Part shown: positions 3,893 to 22,804 of the stretch, one piece after another | Position numbering within the stretch: position 1 is the stretch's first letter | Layout of the letters: the number at the start of each line of letters is the position of its first letter | Origin: Steroidobacteraceae bacterium | GTDB taxonomy: Bacteria; Chloroflexota; Limnocylindria; QHBO01 | Direction of reading: 5' to 3' | Assembly: GCA_025935615.1 (NCBI GenBank) | Contig: JAICUY010000011.1 | Coordinates: 1 to 35,604, forward strand | Length of the DNA: 35,604 nucleotides | Position numbers and translations under genes: made by a program | The notes under the pieces: generated by a model | What the model was told of the DNA's origin: nothing | What the model saw: the letters and a program-made list of their open reading frames with translations, nothing else | Databases searched by the model: none

Positions 3893-4693
3893 CTATGGCT
3901 GGCAGCGCGGGCACCAGTACGTCATTCGCGCGCCGTCCCCCTGCCGCCGCCCCAGGATCAACGTCCCGCACCGACGGCACGGCCGGCCGCCGCGACCGTA
4001 GACCCACAGCTGCTGGCCGGGTCGGCCTCGCCCGGTGGTCACCCGCGCCCCGCCGCCCACGTTCGCTCCCAACAACCGATGCGCCGTGGCCACCACTCCC
4101 CGAACGACCTCCTCCTCCAGCTCCCCGACAGGTCGCCACGGGCTGACGCCCTCGAGGAAACAGATCTCGCTCTTGTAGACGTTGCCCACGCCCGCCATCA
4201 GCCGCTGGTCGAGCAGCGCCTCGCCGATCTCGCGTCGGCCGTCGGACCGCAGTCGCCGCACGGCTTCATCGGCATCGAACGACCGCGACAGCAGGTCCGG
4301 CCCGAGCGCGGTCAGCTGCGGGTGGCGTGCGAGGCCCGCATCGGTCATGAGCTCGACTTCCGGCACGTCGAAGGCGACGGCAACAGTGGTCGCCGTCTCG
4401 AGCACCGCGCTGGCCTGGCTGGCTGGCCGGCGCCAGCTGTCACCCACGCGGTACCGATGCCACGCGCCCCGCATCCGCAGGTGCGTTCGCAGCGTGAGCC
4501 CGTTGTCGAAACCGATCAGCAGGTGCTTCCCGCGCGCCTCGACGCTGCTGACCAGGCTCCCGACCAGCGGCGCCAGGTCCGGCACGCGCCGCAATCCCGG
4601 CCGGGGCTGAGCGTAGGCGCGCGTGATCTGGGCGCCGAGCAGCGCCTGCCGCAGCACCTCGGCGATGCGGAAGATCGTGTCCCCCTCTGGCAT
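3893..4693 (-). CDS. Fpg/Nei-family DNA glycosylase (endonuclease VIII-like)
   Basis: MPEGDTIFRIAEVLRQALLG... (MPEGDTI N-terminus) and C-terminal zinc finger CRRCGTLILGRRQGDGARMTYWCPRCQ. Confidence 0.92.
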   Translation of the reverse strand: MPEGDTIFRIAEVLRQALLGAQITRAYAQPRPGLRRVPDLAPLVGSLVSSVEARGKHLLIGFDNGLTLRTHLRMRGAWHRYRVGDSWRRPASQASAVLETATTVAVAFDVPEVELMTDAGLARHPQLTALGPDLLSRSFDADEAVRRLRSDGRREIGEALLDQRLMAGVGNVYKSEICFLEGVSPWRPVGELEEEVVRGVVATAHRLLGANVGGGARVTTGRGRPGQQLWVYGRGGRPCRRCGTLILGRRQGDGARMTYWCPRCQP

Positions 4694-4725: not shown

Positions 4726-4769
4726 GGTAAGCCGGTGGTAAGTGGACGGTAAGCGGCTGGTAATGGCCG
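4726..4769. promoter_or_regulatory. Four 11-bp-phased direct repeats GGTAAGCCGGT-GGTAAGTGGAC-GGTAAGCGGCT-GGTAATGGCCG
   Basis: GGTAA(G/T) at 4726, 4737, 4748, 4759, exactly 11-bp spacing, inside the divergent nei/HTH-nuclease intergenic region. Confidence 0.75.
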
Positions 4770-4787
4770 CCGCGGCATCATTGCCCG

Positions 4788-5531
4788 ATGCTGAACGCTG
4801 AACTCGGCAGGATCGCCCGGTCGATCCGACATCGGCTGCGCTTGCGACAGGAGGATGTGGCAGCGAGGGCGCGGGTGCATCGGTCAGCGGTGAGCCGTCT
4901 CGAGCACGGGATGATTGGGACGATCGATGTCGACGTGGTCCGCGCCATCTTCGACGCCCTGGGGGCCAAGCTGGAGCTTCGCGTCCTGTGGCATGGGCCG
5001 GAACTGGCGCGGATGATGGACGAGGCGCATGCGGTTCTGGCGGCCGCATGGAAGGCGCGGCTCGAGCGATGGGGCTGGCTCGTCCGGGTCGAGGTGAGCT
5101 ACAGCCGCTACGGCGAGCGCGGCCGAATCGACCTCCTCGCGTTTCATCCGGCGTTGCGGATCGTGCTGGTTATCGAAGTCAAGACGGACATGGTCGACGC
5201 GCAGGGCCTGCTCGGCCCTTTGGACGTGAAGCTTCGACTGGCCCGCGCAATTGCCGCCGATCTGGGGTGGGCGGCGCCGGCTCTCGTTGTGCCTGTTGTC
5301 CTGTTCCGCGACGACACCACCATCCGCCGCCGGGTCGCCCGCTTGGCGCCGCTCTTCGCAGACCTCGACCTCGTCGGCCGCGGCGCTACGGCATGGCTCC
5401 GCTCACCGTCCCTCGAGCGCGGTCCTCGAGGCCTCCTGCTCTTCTCGGCCCTGGTCCATGGCGACGGACGTCCGCCGTCGGTCGCACGGGAACGGATTCG
5501 GGTCCGGCAAGCGCCGGAGCGAGCGGGCTGA
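4788..5531 (+). CDS. XRE-type HTH fused to a PD-(D/E)XK nuclease-like domain
   Basis: HTH: RSIRHRLRLRQEDVAARARVHRSAVSRLEHG; nuclease-like core: RIDLLAFHPALRIVLVIEVKTDMVDAQGLLGPLDVKLRLA (D...EVK). Confidence 0.7.
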   Translation: MLNAELGRIARSIRHRLRLRQEDVAARARVHRSAVSRLEHGMIGTIDVDVVRAIFDALGAKLELRVLWHGPELARMMDEAHAVLAAAWKARLERWGWLVRVEVSYSRYGERGRIDLLAFHPALRIVLVIEVKTDMVDAQGLLGPLDVKLRLARAIAADLGWAAPALVVPVVLFRDDTTIRRRVARLAPLFADLDLVGRGATAWLRSPSLERGPRGLLLFSALVHGDGRPPSVARERIRVRQAPERAG

Positions 5532-10644: not shown

Positions 10645-11235
10645 TCAGCGCCCGCGCCGCCGGTCGTCGAGGACCGGCTCGATCAGCCCATAGCTCCCGT
10701 CGTTGCGCCGATACAGGACGTTGATCGTCTCGCTGTCGGCGTTGAGGAAGACGAAGAACGCGTGGCCCAGCTCCTCCATGCGGTCGATGGCGTCCTCCTC
10801 GAACATCGGCACCATGTCGAAGCGCTTGAGCTTCACGATCTCGGGACGCGTCTCCTCCTGCTCGTCGGGCCCAGCCACGCTGCCCAGCGCCTCGCGCGCG
10901 GTGATGGCCTGGGTCGCCTCGGCGGTGCGACCGCGACCGCTGCGCGGTCGCTCCTTGCTGCGCACCACCTGGCGCTCCAGCTTGTCGAGCAGCGCGTCGA
11001 GGGCGGCGATCGGGTTGGAGCCGGCCGATTGTGAGCGCACCACCTCGCCGTCGTTGCGCAGCGTCACCTCGGCGACGTGAGACTGGTCGTTGGCCCGCGA
11101 GGCGTTGGCGATCAGCTCGACCGTCGCCTCGGCGTCCGGATGCGAGATCCGGTCGAGCCGGCGCAGCTTCTTCTCGATGTCCGCTCGCAGGCGATCGCTG
11201 AGCTCGAGGTTCCGGGCCTTGACGTTGGTCTTCAC
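10645..11235 (-). CDS. hpf: Ribosome hibernation promoting factor / sigma-54 modulation protein (long form)
   Basis: VKTNVKARNLELSDRLRADIEKKLRRLDRISHPDAEATVEL..., C-terminal VKLKRFDMVPMFEEDAIDRMEELGHAFFVFLNADSETINVLYRRNDGSYGLIEP; AGGA before GTG at 11235. Confidence 0.93.
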   Translation of the reverse strand: MKTNVKARNLELSDRLRADIEKKLRRLDRISHPDAEATVELIANASRANDQSHVAEVTLRNDGEVVRSQSAGSNPIAALDALLDKLERQVVRSKERPRSGRGRTAEATQAITAREALGSVAGPDEQEETRPEIVKLKRFDMVPMFEEDAIDRMEELGHAFFVFLNADSETINVLYRRNDGSYGLIEPVLDDRRRGR

Positions 11236-11294
11236 GTCCGATCCTCCGCTGCGGCTGGTCTCCATACCGTAGCACCGGCCGTGAACAGGGTCAC

Positions 11295-11945
11295 TCACAC
11301 CTCTCGGCCGATGGCAAAGCCGTACACATGCATCACGCCTGCCTCGCGCAGGACCGATGCGCACGTCTCCAGCGTCGCGGACGTCGTCAGGATGTCGTCG
11401 ACCACGATGACCGTCGGAGGCGGACGTGCGGCGGCGTTGACCGCGAAGGCGCCGCGCAGGTTCCGCAGCCGCCCTGCCCGGTCGAGCCGATGCTGCTTGG
11501 TGGTCGCCACCTGCCGCACCAGCAGCGTTCCGGCGCGGGTCGAGGTGCAGCGCGCCAGCTCTCGGGCCAGCAGCTCCGCCTGGTTGTAGCCGCGCTCTCG
11601 CTGCCGTTCCACGTGCACCGGCACGGGGATCAGGAGGGCCGGCCCGCTGAGGCGCAGCAGGGTGCGCAGTGCAGGCGCGGCCGCATCGGCCAGTGGTCGG
11701 GCCAGGCGCGAGGCGCCCATGTACTTCAGGCGCTGCAGGATTCGGCGCAGCGTGGGCTCGTAGGCGAAGGCAGCCAGCGCGAGCGCGAGCGCGTCGCCGA
11801 TCAGCGTTCCAGCATCGGCAGCGTAGAAGCGGTCGACGGGATCGGCCGGCGGGCGCAGTCGTCGCAGGCAGCGTGCACAGACGAGGTCGCCGGACCGGCC
11901 ACAGCCGGCGCACGCGGGTGGCAGCAGCAGATCGAGCAGGGCCAT
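11295..11945 (-). CDS. comF: ComF-family phosphoribosyltransferase-like protein
   Basis: CAGCGRSGDLVCARCLRRLRPP; LLIPVPVHVERQRERGYNQAELLARELAR; TVIVVDDILTTSATLETCASVLREAG. Confidence 0.9.
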   Translation of the reverse strand: MALLDLLLPPACAGCGRSGDLVCARCLRRLRPPADPVDRFYAADAGTLIGDALALALAAFAYEPTLRRILQRLKYMGASRLARPLADAAAPALRTLLRLSGPALLIPVPVHVERQRERGYNQAELLARELARCTSTRAGTLLVRQVATTKQHRLDRAGRLRNLRGAFAVNAAARPPPTVIVVDDILTTSATLETCASVLREAGVMHVYGFAIGREV

Positions 11946-11969
11946 GCCGTAAAGGCTGCCAGAGCACCC

Positions 11970-12002
11970 CTTACCGGCCGCTTACCGCTGGCTTATCGGC
12001 TT
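11970..12002. promoter_or_regulatory. Three 11-bp-phased repeats CTTACCGGCCG-CTTACCGCTGG-CTTATCGGCTT (reverse complement of the GGTAAG-N5 array)
   Basis: CTTA(C/T)C at 11970, 11981, 11992, immediately upstream of comF; a fourth TAAG occurs 8 bp beyond. Confidence 0.7.
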
Positions 12003-12372
12003 AGGGGCTGGGGAGGTCTTCGAAGGCCAGCACATCGCCTGCGACCGTTCCGGACGCCGCTGCGGCCCCGGCCGGCAGCTCCAGGCAGTCCCGGCCGCCG
12101 AAGGTGCGGACCACCATTCGCCAAGGAACCAGATCCGGCACCACCCGCGTCACGCGCCGTGAGCGATCGAGGAAGACGAGGTCGATGGGATAGCCCATGA
12201 ACGTGGTGTCGATGGTCGTCGCCCCGGGCAGGAGCAGTCCTTCTCCGGGCTGCAACCGCGGAAGAAGATGAAGCCCAAGGACCCGTTCACGGAGTCCCTG
12301 GGCAATCTTGCAGGTGACGGCAACCTCCGTATCGCGACTCACGTTATGGACGTGGACGTCGCGGTACGTCAC
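12001..12372 (-). CDS. DUF192-family protein
   Basis: CKIAQGLRERVLGLHLLPRLQPGEGLLLPGATTIDTTFMGYPIDLVFLDRSRRVTRVVPDLVPWR. Confidence 0.85.
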   Translation of the reverse strand: MTYRDVHVHNVSRDTEVAVTCKIAQGLRERVLGLHLLPRLQPGEGLLLPGATTIDTTFMGYPIDLVFLDRSRRVTRVVPDLVPWRMVVRTFGGRDCLELPAGAAAASGTVAGDVLAFEDLPSP

Positions 12373-12379
12373 CGAGAAC

Positions 12380-14206
12380 CTACGAGCACGACCCTGCTGT
12401 CAGGACACACGGCTCGATCAGATACGGGAACCCGTCCCCCGGACCGTCGAACGTCTGCGTCACATTCGTACCGCCGTTGAACGTGAACGTCCACGCGATG
12501 AGTTGGCCAACGCCCGCATGATTTGGCTGACCGGCGATGGAGACGTTGTCATGAGGCGCATACGTGACGCCCTGCCATGACAAGCCGGCGCCGGAATTGA
12601 CCTGGATGACGGTGGTGTCGATTTGGGCGTAGCCGACCTGATCAGGCTTCAGCACGTACAGCGCGATGCCGACGCCGTACAGCGTGGGGTTCGATTCCTG
12701 CCCAGCCTGGTACACCCACTTCGACCCGTTGAACGCGTAAGGGCGGGTGCCCTTGGTCGTCCAACCGCCGAGCTTGAGGTCGTCTCCGGCGGTGTCGATG
12801 TTACCCAGACCGCGGTTCAGGTCCATGACGCCGCCGCTGCCGGGCGAGAACTGGGCGCCACCACCGCCCGACTTTGGCCGGATCACGACGGTCACGCCGT
12901 CGCCGACAATCAGCGCACTGTTGCGGACATCAACCGTATCGGTCACGTAGAACACACCGGGCTGCTGGTTCGATCCGATGAACGTTGCGGTTCCACCGCC
13001 CGGGCTGTTCGGGTTGGAGTGCGAGCGGATGGGATCGAGTACGACACAGGAGCCGTTCTGGACTGTGATGTTGCGGTAGGTCCCCGGCCCGAGCATTGGC
13101 GCTGTGGCGATGGTTCCATCGGATCCGACGCACTTGCCCGAGCTGTTCACCGTTCCGGTGTTGATGTTGATGTCAGGCGGCGACCCACTGAAGGGCGCAC
13201 CTGCCGTATCACCATTCGGCACGTCGGGGAAGGCCGAGTTGTTGATGAACGAGGTCGGCCATGCTCCTGTGTCATTGGGAATCGGCGCGTAGTTCGGGTC
13301 ATTGACGAACGAGGGCAGCTTCTTCGCGCTGATCGGGTTGTTGCTGCCGTCGACGATCTGTCCCGGTGACCAGCAGGAGCTGCCGCACGAGACATAGTCG
13401 ATCAGGTAGACGTTTGCTTCGTCGGCTGCGCTGGAGCTCATGACCTTCAGCCGTGAGCCCGAGCCGGGCATGGTCATGCCGTAGTTGCCGCCCACGTCGC
13501 CGTCGATCACCGTGAGGGTCGACCCTGAACCGGCGATCTTGATGTCCTTCGTGTTTGACGGACCCGAATCGATGTCGGACCCGCCCTGGCCACGGCGCAG
13601 GGTAATCACCGCGAAGCGGTTGGGGAAGATTCCAGCCGTCGACCATGCGGACACCGTGAAGCCGTTGGGGACGAAGATCTTGCCGAAGAAGGTGTCGCGG
13701 CGCTTGTCGACGCGCACGAACAGGACGCTGTTGGACGTGCCGACCGTGCTCATCGAGGATGCCGAGCCGGCACCATTGGGCGGGGTCGAGACCCAGACGG
13801 TGTATGGATCCGTACTGGTCGCTGGCGCGGCCTGCCCTGCGGCTCCGGTATTGCTCGCCGCATAGCCGCTGATGTCCGCGGCGGTCAGCCCCAGATTGAG
13901 GTGATCGTTCAGGTAGTTCCAGGCAGCGGTGCGGGCGCAGGTCCACTTGTCGGTGGACCCGCCGCCGTCTGCGCACGGATCCCCGAGCGGACGTGTCAGG
14001 TAGTTGGCGCCAGCCAGGGCGGCCGCATCGGTCGCGTTCTGGTAGTCGCGGCGCGCGACGTAGAGCGCGCCGACATCGACGGTGAGCGCTGCAAAGCCGA
14101 GGAAGGCGATCAGGCCGAATGCGAAGATGACCAGGATCTGCCCGCGTCCGTCACGGGCATGGCGGCTCGGCGCAGAGCCGAACCGTCGGCGAAGGCGGCC
14201 GAACAT
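12380..14206 (-). CDS. TadG-like Flp-pilus-associated protein with large extracellular C-terminal region
   Basis: MFGRLRRRFGSAPSRHARDGRGQILVIFAFGLIAFLGFAALTVDVGALYVARRDYQNATDAAALAGA; start overlaps tadE stop (TGATG). Confidence 0.85.
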   Translation of the reverse strand: MFGRLRRRFGSAPSRHARDGRGQILVIFAFGLIAFLGFAALTVDVGALYVARRDYQNATDAAALAGANYLTRPLGDPCADGGGSTDKWTCARTAAWNYLNDHLNLGLTAADISGYAASNTGAAGQAAPATSTDPYTVWVSTPPNGAGSASSMSTVGTSNSVLFVRVDKRRDTFFGKIFVPNGFTVSAWSTAGIFPNRFAVITLRRGQGGSDIDSGPSNTKDIKIAGSGSTLTVIDGDVGGNYGMTMPGSGSRLKVMSSSAADEANVYLIDYVSCGSSCWSPGQIVDGSNNPISAKKLPSFVNDPNYAPIPNDTGAWPTSFINNSAFPDVPNGDTAGAPFSGSPPDININTGTVNSSGKCVGSDGTIATAPMLGPGTYRNITVQNGSCVVLDPIRSHSNPNSPGGGTATFIGSNQQPGVFYVTDTVDVRNSALIVGDGVTVVIRPKSGGGGAQFSPGSGGVMDLNRGLGNIDTAGDDLKLGGWTTKGTRPYAFNGSKWVYQAGQESNPTLYGVGIALYVLKPDQVGYAQIDTTVIQVNSGAGLSWQGVTYAPHDNVSIAGQPNHAGVGQLIAWTFTFNGGTNVTQTFDGPGDGFPYLIEPCVLTAGSCS

Positions 14207-14760
14207 CAGCAGTTCACCGTCTGGCTGAGCGACGGGTTCGTCGTCAGCAGCGGGTTCTCTACGCGCATCGCTTCGGTTGCGCCGAGCTGGAACTTGCTGT
14301 CGCTGGCCCCGTCGAGCCCATCGATGATGTTGCTGACGATGGGAATGAGGAGCGGGTGCTGATACTCGATGTGGACCGTCATGCGGACCGAGTAGGTCGG
14401 GGTTGAGTCGTGCGGATCCGAATATGACTCGTAGGTCACGTATGTCGCCCCCGACTGCTTGACGTTGGAGAGCGAGTAGCCCGGAACGCGGCTCATGGCA
14501 TTCGGAGTGGTCGATGCCGTGCCGAGCAGGTAGTTGCATACCTTGGCGCCGGCGCCGGACGCGCCAGACGCGTCACTGACGGGCGATGTGGAGCCATACC
14601 GGGTCGCTTCCCGGACGGCATTGATCACGCCGATCTGGCCCGAGAAGAGCAGGCCGAACTGGATGATGCCCATGAGAATGAGCAGGGCGATGGGAAGGAT
14701 GAGTGCGAACTCGACGAGCGCTTGTCCGCGCTCATCTCGGCTCAGGATTCGCTTGTTCAT
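14206..14760 (-). CDS. tadE: TadE-like pseudopilin
   Basis: MNKRILSRDERGQALVEFALILPIALLILMGIIQFGLLFSGQIGVINAVREATRYG. Confidence 0.9.
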   Translation of the reverse strand: MNKRILSRDERGQALVEFALILPIALLILMGIIQFGLLFSGQIGVINAVREATRYGSTSPVSDASGASGAGAKVCNYLLGTASTTPNAMSRVPGYSLSNVKQSGATYVTYESYSDPHDSTPTYSVRMTVHIEYQHPLLIPIVSNIIDGLDGASDSKFQLGATEAMRVENPLLTTNPSLSQTVNC

Positions 14761-14869
14761 GGATGGCAGCTACCTGCTACGAAGGCCTGCATGCTAGGAA
14801 AGGCACCTTACGCGTCGCCTTGCAGGCTAAGTGAACGAGCGTGGGCGGTCGGTAGTACCTTCGTTCGCC

Positions 14870-16429
14870 TCACTCGATCGCCGCCGCCGATTCGTTGATC
14901 AATTCGCCCTCTGCCTCGCGCGGCTCCGCAGGCAGGAAGACGCGGAACGTGGTTCCGACGCCCTGCTTGCTCTCGACCGCCATCGAGCCGCCCATGATCC
15001 TGGCCAATCCTCGGGCAGCATACAGACCGATGCCGCTTCCATCCGGTGCCGCATCGCGCGCCGCGGCCGAGCGGTAGAACTGCTCGAACGCGTGTGACAG
15101 CGCCTCGGCGTCCATGCCGAACCCCTCGTCGCTGACCCACAGCTCGGCGACCAGATCGCTCGGGACGGCATCCGCCCGCAGGCGCCGATCTTCGGCGTCT
15201 CGCCGATGGCTCTCGATCCCGACTCGGATCTCACTGCCTTGGCCGTACTTCAGTGCGTTGTCGAGCAGCGCCCACACGATCTGCTCCACGCGGTCCGGAT
15301 CGGCGACGATCAACGGCTCATCCGACTCGAGCTTCAGCTCTCGCGTGTCCGACACGAGAGCCCGCCATGTCCGCCGAACGATCGGCTCGGCTCGGAAGAC
15401 GTCCTGGCGGGCGACGAGAGCGCCGGCATCCAGCCGGGTGACCGCCAGCAGCTGTCCAACCATGCGACGCAAGCGATCGGCCTGGTGCTGGATGACCTCG
15501 AGATCGGCGCGGCCGGCAGCATCCAGGTCCGCCCGCGCGCTGAACTCACCGGCGATGGCGCCGATGCTGGTAAGGGGCGTCTGCAGGTCATGCGTCACCC
15601 CGCGCAGGAAGTCGCGCTGGACCTCCGCCAGGCGATGCAGCTCATCGGCCTGCGAACGAACGCGTGCGTAGAGCAGCGCGTGCTCGAGCGCATTGCCGAC
15701 GTGCTGGCCGAGCAGGCTGTAGACGTTGCGATCTGCGGTCGACGGCTCAGCGCGGCCCTCCCATGGCGCGAGCAGCATCGCAGTCACGTCCTCACCCCCC
15801 GCGAGATCGATTACCAGGAAACCGCCCCACGGGCCCTCGATCTGACGCACGTCACTCGTCGTCTTGTCGCCCGCCGACGCGACGGATGCCCAGCGATGCA
15901 CCTCCTCGAGGGGCGCGGGTTCGTCGCGTTCGGGTACGTAGACGCCGGGGACCAGGGCCACACTTTCGGCGACGTGAAGGACGGCCAGGCTCCAGGTCGC
16001 GTCGCCGGTTGCCGCGCGAGCGGCGGCAACGATCGAGCGGGCGACCATGCCCGCATCGGCTCCAATCGCGACCTGCCGTACTTCGGATGCCAGTGAGGCG
16101 ATCTGCCGGTTGCGTTCGTCGAGCGCTGCCGCCATCCGGCGCTGGGCTTCACCGCCGCCACCGGAATCTGCCTCCCGAGTGCGCCGGCCGCGCTCCGCGA
16201 GCCGAACCATGGTGCGCAGGTCATCGCCCAGCCGGCGCGAACCGGCCACCGTCAGGATTCCGATCCAGATCAACGCGGCAAGTGTGACCAACAGGAGGGC
16301 TGACCCCACGCCCGCCTGGGCCACCCAGTCGCCGGCGACGAACATGACGACGGCGAATACGACGAGGACCGGGACGACGGCGACCAGCAACAGCGCCAGC
16401 AGGCGCAGCGCCAGGCGACCGCCGTCCAT
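14870..16429 (-). CDS. Membrane sensor histidine kinase (two N-terminal TM segments, GAF-like region, HisKA/HATPase)
   Basis: FLRGVTHDLQTPLTSIGAIAGEFSA; WALLDNALKYGQGSEIRVGIE; SGIGLYAARGLARIMGGSMAVESKQGVGTTFRVFLP. Confidence 0.92.
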   Translation of the reverse strand: MDGGRLALRLLALLLVAVVPVLVVFAVVMFVAGDWVAQAGVGSALLLVTLAALIWIGILTVAGSRRLGDDLRTMVRLAERGRRTREADSGGGGEAQRRMAAALDERNRQIASLASEVRQVAIGADAGMVARSIVAAARAATGDATWSLAVLHVAESVALVPGVYVPERDEPAPLEEVHRWASVASAGDKTTSDVRQIEGPWGGFLVIDLAGGEDVTAMLLAPWEGRAEPSTADRNVYSLLGQHVGNALEHALLYARVRSQADELHRLAEVQRDFLRGVTHDLQTPLTSIGAIAGEFSARADLDAAGRADLEVIQHQADRLRRMVGQLLAVTRLDAGALVARQDVFRAEPIVRRTWRALVSDTRELKLESDEPLIVADPDRVEQIVWALLDNALKYGQGSEIRVGIESHRRDAEDRRLRADAVPSDLVAELWVSDEGFGMDAEALSHAFEQFYRSAAARDAAPDGSGIGLYAARGLARIMGGSMAVESKQGVGTTFRVFLPAEPREAEGELINESAAAIE

Positions 16430-16431
16430 TG

Positions 16432-17142
16432 TCAGGCCGGCTGCGCGGTCGTCGCGGCCGAGACGAGGCGGTAGCCGATCCCCCGCTCAGTCAACAGGTA
16501 GCGTGGATGATCGGGGTCGAGCTCGACCTTGCGGCGAAGGCGCCGGATGCTGACCCACACGTACGACGGGTCAGCACCGTCTGCGTCCGACCAGACGCGG
16601 TCGAGCAGCGTCTCGGTCGGGACGACGTGGTCGATGGACCCGATCAGAACCTGGAGCAGCCGAATCTCGGTAGGGGTCAACGGCGACGAGCCGGCCGGTG
16701 TCACGACGCGTTTCGCGGCCAGGTCGATCTCCAGCTCGCCGTCGTCGAGGTTGATCTGCGGCCGTCCGACACGCACCCGGCGCATGACGCGCTGCACGCG
16801 GGCGACGAGCTCGTCCGGGTTGAACGGCTTGGTGATGTAGTCCTCGGCATAGTCCTCGAGGGCGCGGACCTTGGAGGTGTCCTCGGAGACCGCCGACAGC
16901 ACGATGATCGGCAGGTCGGCGATGCGCTTCACCCGCCGGCACAGTTCCCAGCCGTCCATGCCCGGCATCATGAGGTCGACGACCAGCAGGCTGGGCCAGC
17001 TGCGTTCGAGCGCGGTGAGGGCACTCGCTCCTGAAGGAGCGGTCCGAACCTCGTACCCCTCCCGCGTCAGCCGGCGCGCAAGGACCGATAGAAGTGTCGC
17101 GTCATCATCGACCAGCAGGATCCCCGGTCGAAGATGGGGCAT
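16432..17142 (-). CDS. OmpR/PhoB-family response regulator
   Basis: GILLVDDDATLLSVLARRLTREGYEVRTAPSG...VDLMMPGMDGWELCRR...KPFNPDELVARV + winged-helix LTPTEIRLLQVLI...YVWVSIRRLRRKVELDPDHPRYLLTERGIGYRL. Confidence 0.95.
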   Translation of the reverse strand: MPHLRPGILLVDDDATLLSVLARRLTREGYEVRTAPSGASALTALERSWPSLLVVDLMMPGMDGWELCRRVKRIADLPIIVLSAVSEDTSKVRALEDYAEDYITKPFNPDELVARVQRVMRRVRVGRPQINLDDGELEIDLAAKRVVTPAGSSPLTPTEIRLLQVLIGSIDHVVPTETLLDRVWSDADGADPSYVWVSIRRLRRKVELDPDHPRYLLTERGIGYRLVSAATTAQPA

Positions 17143-17146
17143 CACC

Positions 17147-18070
17147 TCAAATGCCGCCCCCGACGCCGCCACCCATGACGGTCACCACGGCCGGACCGAG
17201 AATCACGATGAAGATCGTCGGGAAGATGCAGCCTACCATCGGGAACAGCATCTTGACGGGTGCCTTCGCTGCGGCCTCCTCAGCCCGCTGGCGGCGCTCG
17301 ATACGCAGCTGCTGCGACTGGATCTGGAGCACCTTGGCGATAGGAACGCCGAGCTGCTCAGCCTGGACGATGGCGCCGATGAAGTTCGAGATCGGCTGGG
17401 CATCCGAGCGCGTGGCGACGTCGCGCAGTGCGTCGCGCCGGGTGCGTCCCATCCGGACCTCGGCCAGTGCCTGGCGGAACTCCTCGACGAGCGGCCCTTC
17501 CATCTTTTCGACCACCTTTGCGAGCGCCGCGTCGAAGCCGAGGCCGGCTTCGACCGAGATCGTCAGCAGGTCGAGTGCGTCGGGCAGCTGCAGGACCATC
17601 TCGAAGGCCCGTCCGCGGATCTTGCGGCCGAGCCAGAACTCGGGCGCCATGAATCCGATCGGCAGCCCGATCAGGCCAAAGAAGAGACCGCCCTGCACTC
17701 CGGCGATGAGCGACAGCAGCAGGAAGAAGAGCACGCCGAAGACGATTGCCGAGAGGATCTTGACGCCCATCCAGTCGGCGCCTCGCAGGCCGCCCGGGTA
17801 GCCAGCCTTTTCGAGCTTGGCATCCGTCCGCGCGATGATCCCACCCTGGTCGCCGCGACGGCCGACCTTGGAGAGTCGCTTGATGACGGGACGAAGCGTG
17901 CGCTCGAAGAACGGCTGGCCGAGCTCGTACTCCTCGAGCGTCTTGGGCTGGACGACGAGCTGTTCGAGCCGAGCCTGCACCGCGTCCTTGCCTGGACGCG
18001 CGGCGATGCCGAATGTGATGAGCAGGACCGCAAGCGAGGCGAGAACGGCGATCAGGATCTGTGGAGGCAT
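17147..18070 (-). CDS. tadC: TadC-like type II/Flp secretion inner-membrane protein
   Basis: LPDALDLLTISVEAGLGFDAALAKVVEKMEGPLVEEFRQALAEVRMGRTRRDALRDVATRSD...QSQQLRIERRQRAEEAAAKAPVKMLFPMVGCIFPTIFIVILGPA. Confidence 0.92.
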   Translation of the reverse strand: MPPQILIAVLASLAVLLITFGIAARPGKDAVQARLEQLVVQPKTLEEYELGQPFFERTLRPVIKRLSKVGRRGDQGGIIARTDAKLEKAGYPGGLRGADWMGVKILSAIVFGVLFFLLLSLIAGVQGGLFFGLIGLPIGFMAPEFWLGRKIRGRAFEMVLQLPDALDLLTISVEAGLGFDAALAKVVEKMEGPLVEEFRQALAEVRMGRTRRDALRDVATRSDAQPISNFIGAIVQAEQLGVPIAKVLQIQSQQLRIERRQRAEEAAAKAPVKMLFPMVGCIFPTIFIVILGPAVVTVMGGGVGGGI

Positions 18071-18077
18071 GACTGGC

Positions 18078-19070
18078 TTACACCTTGATGTCGACGATGC
18101 GGCGGATGAGCAGGTACCCGATGCCCATGCTGATCAAGCCGACAATGAAGAAGACGATACCCATCGGAAGCCCGAACATCTCGGGTGGCTTGTTGATCAT
18201 TGCCCCGATGTACGACGGGCTGATGAGGAACAGGATCCCTGCGAGGCCCACCGGCAGCAGCGTGATGACGTAGCCGCTGTAGCGCTGCATGGCGGTCAGT
18301 GTCTGGATCTCCCCCTGGATCCGGATCCGCTCGCGAATCGTGAACGCGATCGAGTCGAGCACGGTGGCGAGATTGCCGCCGACCTGGCTCTGGATATTGA
18401 TCGCGGTGACCATCAGCTCGAGATCTTCGGACTTCACCCGACGAGACATGTTGTTGAGGGCAGGCTGGAGTGCGACGCCCAGACTCATCTCGCGCACCAC
18501 GCGTTCGAACTCGGTGCTGATCGGGGGCCGAGCTTCGCGGGTCACCAGCTCGACGCCCTGAAGGAACGAAGATCCCGCGCGCAGCGAGTTGGCGAGCAGG
18601 GTGATGGTGTCGGGCAGCTGTGTACCGAACTCCTTGACCCGCTTGTTCTGGCGATATCGCAGGTAGAAGCGGGGGAAGTAGGCACCGATCAGGAACGCGA
18701 GAGCAAGGGCGATCGGATTACGGAGGCCAGCGAACACGAAGCTCAGCACGAACGCACCGGCCGCGAACGCGAATGGCGACGCGATCCACATCAGGATGAA
18801 TTCCGCCGGCTTCAGCTTCATGTCCGCGCGGGCCAGTTCGGTGCTGAGCCGAGCCGACATGTCCTGCCGCTCGATGACGCGACTCAGGCCGGCAACGACC
18901 GCAGACTCGCGGTCCTCGTCACCCCCGCTGGAGGGCTCCCCGGCGTTCGCCGACGCGTACCGCTCGAGGCGTGACGACACGGCGCCGCCACCGCCACCGC
19001 TCATGGCGATGCCGATCGCGATCAGCAGGACCGCGCCTGCGGAAAGGCCGGCGATGACGATTGGCAGCAT
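18078..19070 (-). CDS. tadB: TadB-like type II/Flp secretion inner-membrane protein
   Basis: LPDTITLLANSLRAGSSFLQGVELVTREARPPISTEFERVVREMSLGVALQPALNNMSRRV. Confidence 0.92.
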   Translation of the reverse strand: MLPIVIAGLSAGAVLLIAIGIAMSGGGGGAVSSRLERYASANAGEPSSGGDEDRESAVVAGLSRVIERQDMSARLSTELARADMKLKPAEFILMWIASPFAFAAGAFVLSFVFAGLRNPIALALAFLIGAYFPRFYLRYRQNKRVKEFGTQLPDTITLLANSLRAGSSFLQGVELVTREARPPISTEFERVVREMSLGVALQPALNNMSRRVKSEDLELMVTAINIQSQVGGNLATVLDSIAFTIRERIRIQGEIQTLTAMQRYSGYVITLLPVGLAGILFLISPSYIGAMINKPPEMFGLPMGIVFFIVGLISMGIGYLLIRRIVDIKV

Positions 19071-19092
19071 CTGGGATTTGGCTCCTCGGTGA

Positions 19093-20571
<1,479 letters not shown>

Positions 20572-20587
20572 GGTGAGTTCCTTCCCC

Positions 20588-21808
20588 TTAGCGGCGTGCG
20601 AAGAGTCCGCGCTTGGCTGACTTCTCTGTGGACTTGTTGGCGGCGGGCTCTCCCGCGAGCGTACGAGCGAGCTTGGCGATATCGCGCGACAGCGCGCTAT
20701 CCGGGTGGGATACGACGAACGGAACGCCGCGATTCACCGCGAGCACGGCAAGGCGGCCATCGGAAACGATGGTGCCGTCGATCGAGCGGCGGATGGAAGC
20801 CTCCACGTCGCCGATCCGGATCCCCTGGGCAGTGTCGGAGCGGTTGATCACGAGACGAATCTTCGACCGATCGTACTCGAGTTGGTCGGCAACCTCCAGG
20901 AACAGGCGGACGTTCTTGATGGTGGTGATCTCGAGAGCGGAGAGCACTACGATCTGATCGGCCGCGTCCATGACCCCCAGGCTGTGGTCGGTCAGCGCCG
21001 CAGGCAGGTCGACGATGACGTAGTCGTGGTTGACTCGGAGCTGATCGACCATCTTCCGCAGGTAGGCGGGAGTCACGAGGTCCGCTCCCTCAGGCGCCGG
21101 AGGCGCGAGCAGCACCCGGATTCCCGTGGAATGGTCGATCACCACCGAATTGATGATGTCCGCATCCGGCTCGCCACCTTCGACCGCGTCGAGCATCGAG
21201 CGGTTCTTGGGGTTGAGGTTGAGCAATACACCGATGTCGCCGAACTGCAGGTTCGCGTCGATCAGGCACACCCGGCTCTTCGTCTCGCGCTGAATGGCCA
21301 GCGCCAGGTTGGTGGCGATCGTCGTTCGGCCGGCGCCGCCCTTCGGCGAGAACATGGCGATGACCTGATGGTCCTCGATGTTCTCGGACTGGCCGCCCGG
21401 GGTGGGCGGAATGACGACCTGCAGCTGCTCGCGGCGCGCCAGCTCCTTGCCGAAGACGCTGTGGATGGTGGTGCTGAACTCATCGGCCGAGAACGGCTTG
21501 ACGAGGAACTCGCGAGCCCCGGCCGCAATGGCGCGACGGAGCTGCTCGGCCTCGCCGTGGACGCTCATCATGATGATCGGCGAGGTGGGCAGCCGCTGCG
21601 AGATGAACTCGGCGGCGGCCACCCCATCCATGCCCGGCATGTTGATGTCCATGACGATGACGTCGGGGCGCACCTCCATGGCGAGCCTGATCGCCTCCTC
21701 CCCGGAGCCGGCGGTGGCCACCACGTCGATCTCCTGCTCGGTGGCGAGGAGCTTGGTCAAGTGGTCACGCGTCTCGGGGATGTCGTCGACGATCAGGACC
21801 TTGATCAC
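20588..21808 (-). CDS. cpaE: CpaE-like protein: intact receiver domain + MinD/ParA-type ATPase
   Basis: MIKVLIVDDIPETRDHLTKLL...VMDINMPGMDG...KPFSADEF + MFSPKGGAGRTTIATNLALAIQRETKSRVCLIDANLQFGDIGVLLNL. Confidence 0.93.
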   Translation of the reverse strand: MIKVLIVDDIPETRDHLTKLLATEQEIDVVATAGSGEEAIRLAMEVRPDVIVMDINMPGMDGVAAAEFISQRLPTSPIIMMSVHGEAEQLRRAIAAGAREFLVKPFSADEFSTTIHSVFGKELARREQLQVVIPPTPGGQSENIEDHQVIAMFSPKGGAGRTTIATNLALAIQRETKSRVCLIDANLQFGDIGVLLNLNPKNRSMLDAVEGGEPDADIINSVVIDHSTGIRVLLAPPAPEGADLVTPAYLRKMVDQLRVNHDYVIVDLPAALTDHSLGVMDAADQIVVLSALEITTIKNVRLFLEVADQLEYDRSKIRLVINRSDTAQGIRIGDVEASIRRSIDGTIVSDGRLAVLAVNRGVPFVVSHPDSALSRDIAKLARTLAGEPAANKSTEKSAKRGLFARR

Positions 21809-21834
21809 GGTCAGGACTCCAGCGTCAGGGGTGC

Positions 21835-22725
21835 TCAGCGACCGGGCTTGGTCTTACCGCCGCCGACCTGCTCCACGATGCCCGGCACCGGGAGGCCATA
21901 GTCGTCGACCAGGCGGTCGATGGTGATACCGGTCGTGCGCTCGTTATCCGTGTCCTGGGTCGCGCGGATCGTGACCGAGAACAGGCGAGCCCCGGATGCC
22001 TCGACCGCATCGCGCTGAGCGAACTTGATCAGCTCGGCGTCCTGGTCGGTGCCGGCGAAGACGATCAGCACGGTATCGGTCAACTGCGGCTGAGCGGCAG
22101 CGGGCTGCTCTGCTCCCGGACTTGGCGTTGCCGCGGTCTGGGTAGCCCGCGACTGGCTCACGTACAGCACGCGCTTGTTCTGGAGCACCGTCTTCACGGT
22201 GCGCGCGGCCGACAGCCCGGTGACCGGCTCGAAACGCGGATTCTGAGCGGTTGAGTCGGACGACGGCTGCAGGACTTGCACGTCCTGAGCGATGACAACG
22301 TCGATCACGTCCCCTGGCTTCACCAGGAAGTCGGCGCCGGTCGTGCGGTCGAGCTGCAGCGTCACGGCCTTCTCGCCGGGCTTCAGCTGCCCGGGGATAT
22401 TCACGACGAGCAGTCCTTCGCCGAACGTTTCCTTGCTCACCTGGGCCCCAGCCGGAACGGCCACAACGGCGGGACGGCCGCCGACCTGCGAGGGATCGGT
22501 GAGGGCGGTACCCGAGACGCCGGTCGGCGGGACGAGCTTCGTCTGCACCATGTCAGGCGTGACCGGCTGCCCGATCGCGATGTCTTCCTTGGCGACCAGG
22601 ACGGTGGCCTGCACTTCCTGCTGCGGAGCGCCCGGCCCCTGGTTCAAGAAGACAACAATCGCGATGAACGCGAGGACGGCGAGCAGCACACCAACCAGGA
22701 TCACCAGGCGATTAGACCGCTTCAC
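21835..22725 (-). CDS. cpaB: CpaB/RcpC-like Flp pilus assembly protein (SAF domain)
   Basis: VKRSNRLVILVGVLLAVLAFIAIVVFLNQGPGAPQQEVQATVLVAKEDIAIGQPVTPDMVQTKLVPP; GTG start with AAGGGG upstream. Confidence 0.88.
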   Translation of the reverse strand: MKRSNRLVILVGVLLAVLAFIAIVVFLNQGPGAPQQEVQATVLVAKEDIAIGQPVTPDMVQTKLVPPTGVSGTALTDPSQVGGRPAVVAVPAGAQVSKETFGEGLLVVNIPGQLKPGEKAVTLQLDRTTGADFLVKPGDVIDVVIAQDVQVLQPSSDSTAQNPRFEPVTGLSAARTVKTVLQNKRVLYVSQSRATQTAATPSPGAEQPAAAQPQLTDTVLIVFAGTDQDAELIKFAQRDAVEASGARLFSVTIRATQDTDNERTTGITIDRLVDDYGLPVPGIVEQVGGGKTKPGR

Positions 22726-22794
22726 AGATGTACCCCTTAGAGCTCGGAATGGGTGGTCGATAAGGCCAGGGAATGATGCAGCCGTTGTGACTGC

Positions 22795-22804
22795 GGTCAA
22801 CAGT
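22795..22804 (-). promoter_or_regulatory. Candidate promoter -35 region (minus strand ACTGTTGACC) upstream of cpaB
   Basis: TTGACC, ~16 nt spacer, CATCAT; 10-mer shared with 25398 and 34295. Confidence 0.45.

Follow-up and report, generated by a model that had tools for sequence, protein, structure and literature searches.

The core SigX regulon of streptococci includes radA, comFC, comEA, comEC, dprA, radC, ssbB and recA (PMC5069739). In Haemophilus, the Sxy/CRP-S regulon co-regulates comF, comM, radC, dprA, ssb and comEA-type genes, and its CRP-S sites, at which CRP acts together with Sxy, are inverted repeats. The MtrA box of Corynebacterium glutamicum has the sequence (A/G)TAACAATttn(A/G)TAACAAT (PMC3353115). 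In actinobacteria, comF lies in a neighbourhood of the order mtrA-mtrB-lpqB-comF-hpf. Soils commonly harbour Chloroflexi (PMC7305173), and one survey recorded a ComEC-type protein in each of its Chloroflexi strains (PMC6299819); the literature searched yielded no description of a competence control system in this phylum. Here we analyse a window of 35,604 nt, meaning the whole stretch of DNA under study, which constitutes contig C77 of a 1.88-Mb metagenome-assembled genome (MAG) of 115 contigs and 68% completeness. Comparative sequence analysis of draft MAGs leads us to propose that a phased repeat array upstream of comF is the activator-dependent promoter operator that coordinates a regulon for natural transformation (competence) and recombination in two families belonging to a single class of Chloroflexota. 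We consider this reading likely (probability roughly 0.8); it is inferred from sequence, without binding, expression or transformation data.

The comF gene (11295..11945, minus strand) encodes a ComF-family, phosphoribosyltransferase-like protein with a DZR_2 zinc ribbon, which matches TIGR00201 (7.6e-28) with 97.7 bits, under the strict cut-off of that model, and whose closest named relative (64% identity) comes from a Chloroflexi MAG from Antarctic soil; on this basis we assign the organism to Chloroflexota. Between comF and a DUF192 gene (12001-12372) lies the array (11970..12002, minus strand), interpreted as an operator from its sequence, from the genome-wide pattern and from arrays at comF in relatives. 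It consists of three units in 11-bp phase, on the forward strand CTTACCGGCCG (11970-11980), CTTACCGCTGG (11981-11991) and CTTATCGGCTT (11992-12002), reading CGATAAGCCAG-CGGTAAGCGGC-CGGTAAGG in the sense of comF. The array ends about 25 nt 5' of the comF ATG (11945), and a -10-like hexamer, CAGCCT (11953..11958, minus strand), is located 11 nt past the last GGTAAG; we predict that transcription starts at or adjoining the ATG, giving a near-leaderless message. A second array, of four units (4726..4764, plus strand), is followed 11 nt past its last unit (GGTAAT) by the -10-like hexamer CATCAT (4776..4781, plus strand) and by a gene for an XRE-type HTH protein (4788..5531, plus strand; HTH_31/HTH_3) with a PD-(D/E)XK-like motif (RIDLL...VIEVK); the gene for an Fpg glycosylase (3893-4693) adjoins this array. 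A preliminary description of the window had placed 11-bp-phased units beginning at 11970, 11981 and 11992 directly upstream of a competence-family comF, and both the coordinates, which are exact, and the gene assignment held. It matched these units to GGTAAGCGGCY; the most upstream unit reads GATAAG rather than GGTAAG. The second locus had been described as lying upstream of a DNA glycosylase/HTH-nuclease pair; the Fpg and XRE-HTH calls were confirmed, while the nuclease call rests on the EVK motif recognised by eye. Its statement that no further such array had been found by eye in the window also stood when at most one mismatch was allowed to GGTAAG-N5-GGTAAG, a search that returned only these two loci.

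The source genome has about six XRE-type genes under array control, among them the one at 4788-5531; its paralogues carry their own arrays on contigs C5, C8, C37, C68 and C76. As separate observations, these proteins form a multi-copy family of which some members carry the PD-(D/E)XK-like motif, and the divergent Fpg/XRE pair is seen again in genome G018 (contig C186, L325). A comparison of the XRE proteins with PADLOC gave weak HTH matches only.

When up to three mismatches were allowed, the window contained 16 matches to GGTAAG-N5-GGTAAG, compared to 7.05 +/- 2.5 in shuffled sequences. Across the source genome, the two-unit pattern with at most one mismatch occurred 26 times, against 6 for a reversed-pattern control, and a three-unit pattern with at most three mismatches occurred 21 times (about 19 distinct loci) against none for the reversed control. 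Because of this last comparison, together with the shuffles in the window, we reject chance or low-complexity repeats as the origin of the arrays. The matches at C51:27732 of the source genome and at L118, L126 and L413 lie antisense within a dnaE-like coding region and were judged to be chance matches kept by coding conservation. In family f1, to which the source genome belongs, three-unit matches were found in 21 of 22 genomes, and genera such as g1, g2, g3, g5 and g8 clearly exceed the control. Exact GGTAAG arrays are concentrated in this family, and no enrichment was seen across the rest of the phylum. A matrix trained on f1 arrays only, with a hit defined as a score over the 95% shuffle level, recognised the region upstream of comF in 25 of 28 cases in family f3 (reverse strand, 5/28) and upstream of comM in 17 of 18 (reverse strand, 1/18); on recJ of families f2, f4 and f5 it scored 2 hits in 13. 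The f3 units are looser (GRTRAG), with the -10 spacing unchanged where it is readable, for example at comF of G086 and comM of G083.

An alignment of 104 distinct f1 arrays, anchored on the last unit, shows that conservation begins at -24 and spans exactly three units, each made up of GGTAAGC and then four G+C-rich bases that are less strictly kept. In 72 of the 104 arrays, a YANNNT hexamer begins at +16/+17, counted from where the last unit starts, other positions accounting for 0-4 each, which leaves 10-11 nt between the last GGTAAG and the -10-like element. Apart from the repeats, no conservation that would indicate a separate -35 element was detected in these 104 arrays. The shared architecture is thus three head-to-tail 11-bp units in sense orientation followed by YANNNT, without a separate conserved -35, although extra units occur and the number of units varies. 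The recJ promoter displays the same layout in 18 relatives as a phylogenetic footprint, typically with CGATAACGGAA as unit 1, CGGTAAGCGGC as unit 2 and CTACCATGG as the -10. Because the direct repeat is triple and 11-bp phased, stands at a fixed distance from the -10 and is accompanied by no separately conserved -35, it resembles an activator site, and we infer, from sequence alone and without binding data, that the geometry is that of activator-dependent promoters. It also fulfils the sequence criterion for an OmpR/PhoB-type operator, namely head-to-tail direct repeats with a period of 10-11 bp that lie 5' of the -10 where a -35 would otherwise stand. Start codons often lie only 7-15 nt past the hexamer, and many of the array-driven transcripts are therefore probably leaderless, again as judged from sequence alone.

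Arrays detected by pattern only lie in sense orientation upstream of genes for DNA import (comF, comEA-comEC), for ssDNA handling and recombination (comM-dprA, recA, radA, ssb, radC, recJ, topA and uvrD-type genes) and for a surface protein with nucleic-acid-binding folds. In the source genome the targets are comF, comM, radC, recJ, topA (two units with wider spacing), recA (array about 285 nt 5' of the ATG, with a small basic ORF in between), two UvrD-type helicases, the six XRE-type HTH genes, an LTD/OB-fold surface protein and a GntR/FCD regulator, along with a few genes of unknown function. Among relatives, an array precedes comEA-comEC in G001 and G007, comEA also in G010, G011, G017, G019 and G021, the comM-dprA operon in G015, and comF in G004, G005, G012, G017 and G019; yraN, parA and dnaB are targets as well. 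Counted over genomes, including the source, arrays were found at radA in 7, ssb in 6, recA in at least 7, radC in 5, comF in 6 and the LTD protein in about 10. Target identities were established with Pfam and NCBIfam on examples, which confirmed ComM, DprA, ComEC, ComEA, RadC, RecA, both UvrD proteins, SSB and TopA, with DprA (TIGR00732) and ComEC (TIGR00361) exceeding the NCBIfam cut-offs; RadA was recognised by its N-terminal zinc ribbon only and the rest by eye. If a competence regulon is taken to require comEA/comEC and DprA under a common control element, the arrays satisfy this (G007/G001 and G015). Eight array targets coincide with the core streptococcal SigX regulon (PMC5069739), and we therefore favour competence over an SOS response. 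The preliminary description had proposed a shared regulon with a DNA theme and predicted that a genome-wide listing of the genes downstream of arrays would bring up competence, repair and recombination genes; such a listing did so, and the theme can be narrowed to competence and recombination. What it had called an operator can be specified as an activator-type site, with binding and regulation inferred only.

Several further features accompany the arrays. The LTD/OB-fold protein (853 aa; L420 2229-4790, source contig C51) has a weak LTD match, a nucleic-acid-binding domain of the OB-fold type and a hydrophobic segment at its C terminus, recurs in about 10 genomes and could possibly act as a surface DNA receptor. 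One array drives a putative structured RNA of roughly 75-100 nt (L044 822-970, source contig C91; also L090, L100, L111, L125 and L146) that carries an invariant GCGTGCCCTGC inside its outer stem, shows compensatory changes in 11 of 32 predicted pairs and ends near a convergent mutase-like gene; a comparison of this hairpin RNA with Rfam returned no match. In G018, the palindrome GTGTTCAAGACTCTTGAACAC, with one-base variants, follows many array promoters near the predicted start (L075, L076, L078, L080, L083, L084, L094) and might be either the site of a second regulator or a mobile repeat.

At some arrays, a large gene is missing from the usual distance. Instead, in 15 of the 22 genomes of f1, an ORF of 15-48 codons begins downstream of the array at an ATG that usually has a Shine-Dalgarno sequence, and these ORFs share the C terminus [ST][GN]G[GSAN](D)[FW]P. 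Examples end in ...TACSNGNGFPS (source contig C95, L011/L033, from C95:8890 onward), ...AAVTGGGDFPRS (G015) and ...AASGGADFPLRR (G017); the peptides of G003 and G005 read MHRLQRPVSNGSGWPR and MSTHTRATTGGGFPG. The motif was first spotted post hoc, by eye, at array loci that lacked a large gene, and the remainder served to test it. In a search window of 60-125 nt past the array start, the criteria were met by 15 hits (14 peptides) among 143 distinct array sequences, compared to a single unrelated sequence among 40,000 random windows; a second background sequence proved to be a true member, adjoining a two-unit array in G019. Among five members from genus g2, differences at the three codon positions number 126/101/245, which indicates selection on a protein. 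A short ORF with a Shine-Dalgarno sequence and a conserved C terminus downstream of a regulon promoter is thus present in 15 genomes. In the longer forms, the C-terminal core is preceded by a hydrophobic segment that is absent from the short forms. Neighbouring genes often encode an EamA-type transporter or an E1 dehydrogenase; the latter gene, intended as the anchor for a peptide search in f3, was not found in that family. The peptide is a possible competence pheromone precursor, its secretion and activity being inferred; that it would be exported and feed back on the system is a proposal that could as well prove wrong as right.

A candidate reader of the arrays is encoded 4.5 kb upstream of comF, within a Tad/Flp pilus cluster that adjoins it. 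It is an OmpR/PhoB-type response regulator (16432..17172, minus strand; Response_reg and Trans_reg_C) closest to MtrA, with MtrA 2GWR as the best PDB hit, and it scores 187.5 bits against the MtrA model NF040689, short of the equivalog cut-off of 300. The adjoining histidine kinase (14870..16429, minus strand; HisKA and HATPase_c) has a hydrophobic N-terminus and, judged by hydropathy, no large outside domain. Of the Tad genes, the one nearest comF encodes a TadG/TadE-like Flp pilus protein (12380..14539, minus strand; PF13400), and two T2SSF membrane proteins, a TadA/CpaF ATPase, a CpaE-like ATPase and CpaB are encoded at 17147..22800 (minus strand). As an observation on the locus itself, the order over 10645-17172 is response regulator, kinase, (TadG, DUF192), comF, hpf. 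Orthologues of the regulator (63-77%) occur in 16 of 22 f1 genomes, and many f3 genomes encode relatives; the listed f2, f4 and f5 genomes have none, so that among the sampled families of the class the gene is confined to f1 and f3, the same families as the operator. It is absent from six f1 assemblies (G008, G010, G015, G018, G020 and G021; 59-92% complete), some of which are rich in arrays. In the proposed mechanism, a winged-helix activator of the OmpR/PhoB type would occupy neighbouring units along the same face of the double helix and, once bound, would replace the -35 contact and recruit RNA polymerase. The MtrA-like regulator is the best candidate for this activator, but because common descent alone could account for its distribution and six f1 assemblies lack the gene, the odds lean slightly against it; the assignment is an inference without binding data.

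Whether another protein reads the operator, be it a different OmpR/PhoB-type, a SARP-type or a peptide-responsive regulator, is in our judgement an evenly balanced question. Most genomes encode several Trans_reg_C proteins, six f1 assemblies lack the candidate, and SARP sites are likewise spaced by 11 bp; on the other side stand the position of the candidate in the pilus cluster beside comF and its f1 and f3 distribution matching that of the arrays, although common descent of the two families would give the same picture. An alternative sigma factor of the SigX/ComX kind, as used by streptococcal competence regulons (PMC5069739), appears very unlikely, as three helically phased repeats in variable number, with extra units, ahead of an ordinary YANNNT -10 do not make a two-block sigma site.

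A DNA-damage regulon, SOS-like or PafBC-like, into which competence genes are drawn since imported DNA serves repair, is a further alternative. It is supported by recA, recJ, topA, ssb and two UvrD-type helicases among the targets and by Fpg beside one array, and recA, ssb, topA, recJ and uvrD would also fit a damage response. We nonetheless regard it as unlikely: comEA-comEC, comF, comM-dprA and radC do not belong to the classical SOS genes, the units are direct repeats in one orientation rather than an inverted repeat of the LexA type, and the array is unlike the PafBC motif, which is TTGTCRGTG-N8-TANNNT. No lexA, uvrA or dinB was recognised among the array targets. A point against the competence reading itself is that some arrays drive parA, a pyruvate-dehydrogenase-like E1 gene and XRE genes, which have no known role in transformation. 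Finally, short repeated words near competence genes could be DNA-uptake signal sequences or a mobile repeat rather than operators. Uptake sequences number hundreds to thousands of copies and show no promoter bias, while the 1.88-Mb genome has only about 19 array loci, which are mostly intergenic, have a defined orientation and stand at a fixed distance from a -10; this all but rules the reading out.

Under the preferred reading, an operator for natural transformation and recombination genes, the regulon suggests a natural-transformation programme in two families of uncultured Chloroflexota that is undescribed in the literature searched, an inference from comparative data. The operator would provide a direct, testable inventory of the natural-transformation parts of soil lineages that are uncultured, and in the conserved short peptides there is a specific candidate for a signal, accessible by synthesis, which could open these bacteria to genetic work. 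A bolder version, which we put forward tentatively and with less than even confidence, is a self-amplifying, peptide-signalled competence programme in Chloroflexota of this class, in which the exported [ST][GN]G[GSAN](D)[FW]P peptide would act via a PhoB/MtrA-type regulator on triple GGTAAGC operators and so switch on the peptide gene itself along with genes for DNA uptake, recombination and surface DNA binding.

Like the streptococcal SigX/ComX regulon (PMC5069739), the proposed regulon would bring comEA, comEC, comFC, dprA, ssb, recA, radA and radC under one control; in contrast, it would do so through phased activator-type sites with no sigma-factor box, adds recJ, topA, uvrD-type genes, comM and XRE proteins, and has a Tad cluster beside comF instead of a comG pilus. 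Its targets overlap with those of the Haemophilus Sxy/CRP-S regulon, whereas its repeats are direct and CRP-S sites inverted. Tad/Flp pilus genes are likewise tied to competence in the high-GC bacterium Micrococcus luteus, whose transformation depends on the Flp/Tad pilus (PMC4322843); in the literature searched, no comparable operator was described for it. With the ComRS/ComCDE pheromones it shares a short peptide gene inside the competence regulon as a candidate for positive feedback, although the peptides, with their C-terminal [ST][GN]G[GSAN](D)[FW]P, are unrelated in sequence. The operator itself comes closest to the MtrA box of C. glutamicum and other Actinobacteria (PMC3353115; PMC5650626), also a direct repeat of 11-bp period with an RTAA core, read by an OmpR/PhoB-type regulator that activates when bound upstream. 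It does not qualify as an MtrA box, since the units read GRTAAGC instead of RTAACAAT, with G rather than C following RTAA, and number three rather than two; furthermore, the targets are competence genes and the regulator encoded in the window falls under the MtrA equivalog cut-off. That regulator is nevertheless closest to MtrA, and the gene order in which it stands resembles the actinobacterial arrangement from mtrA to hpf.
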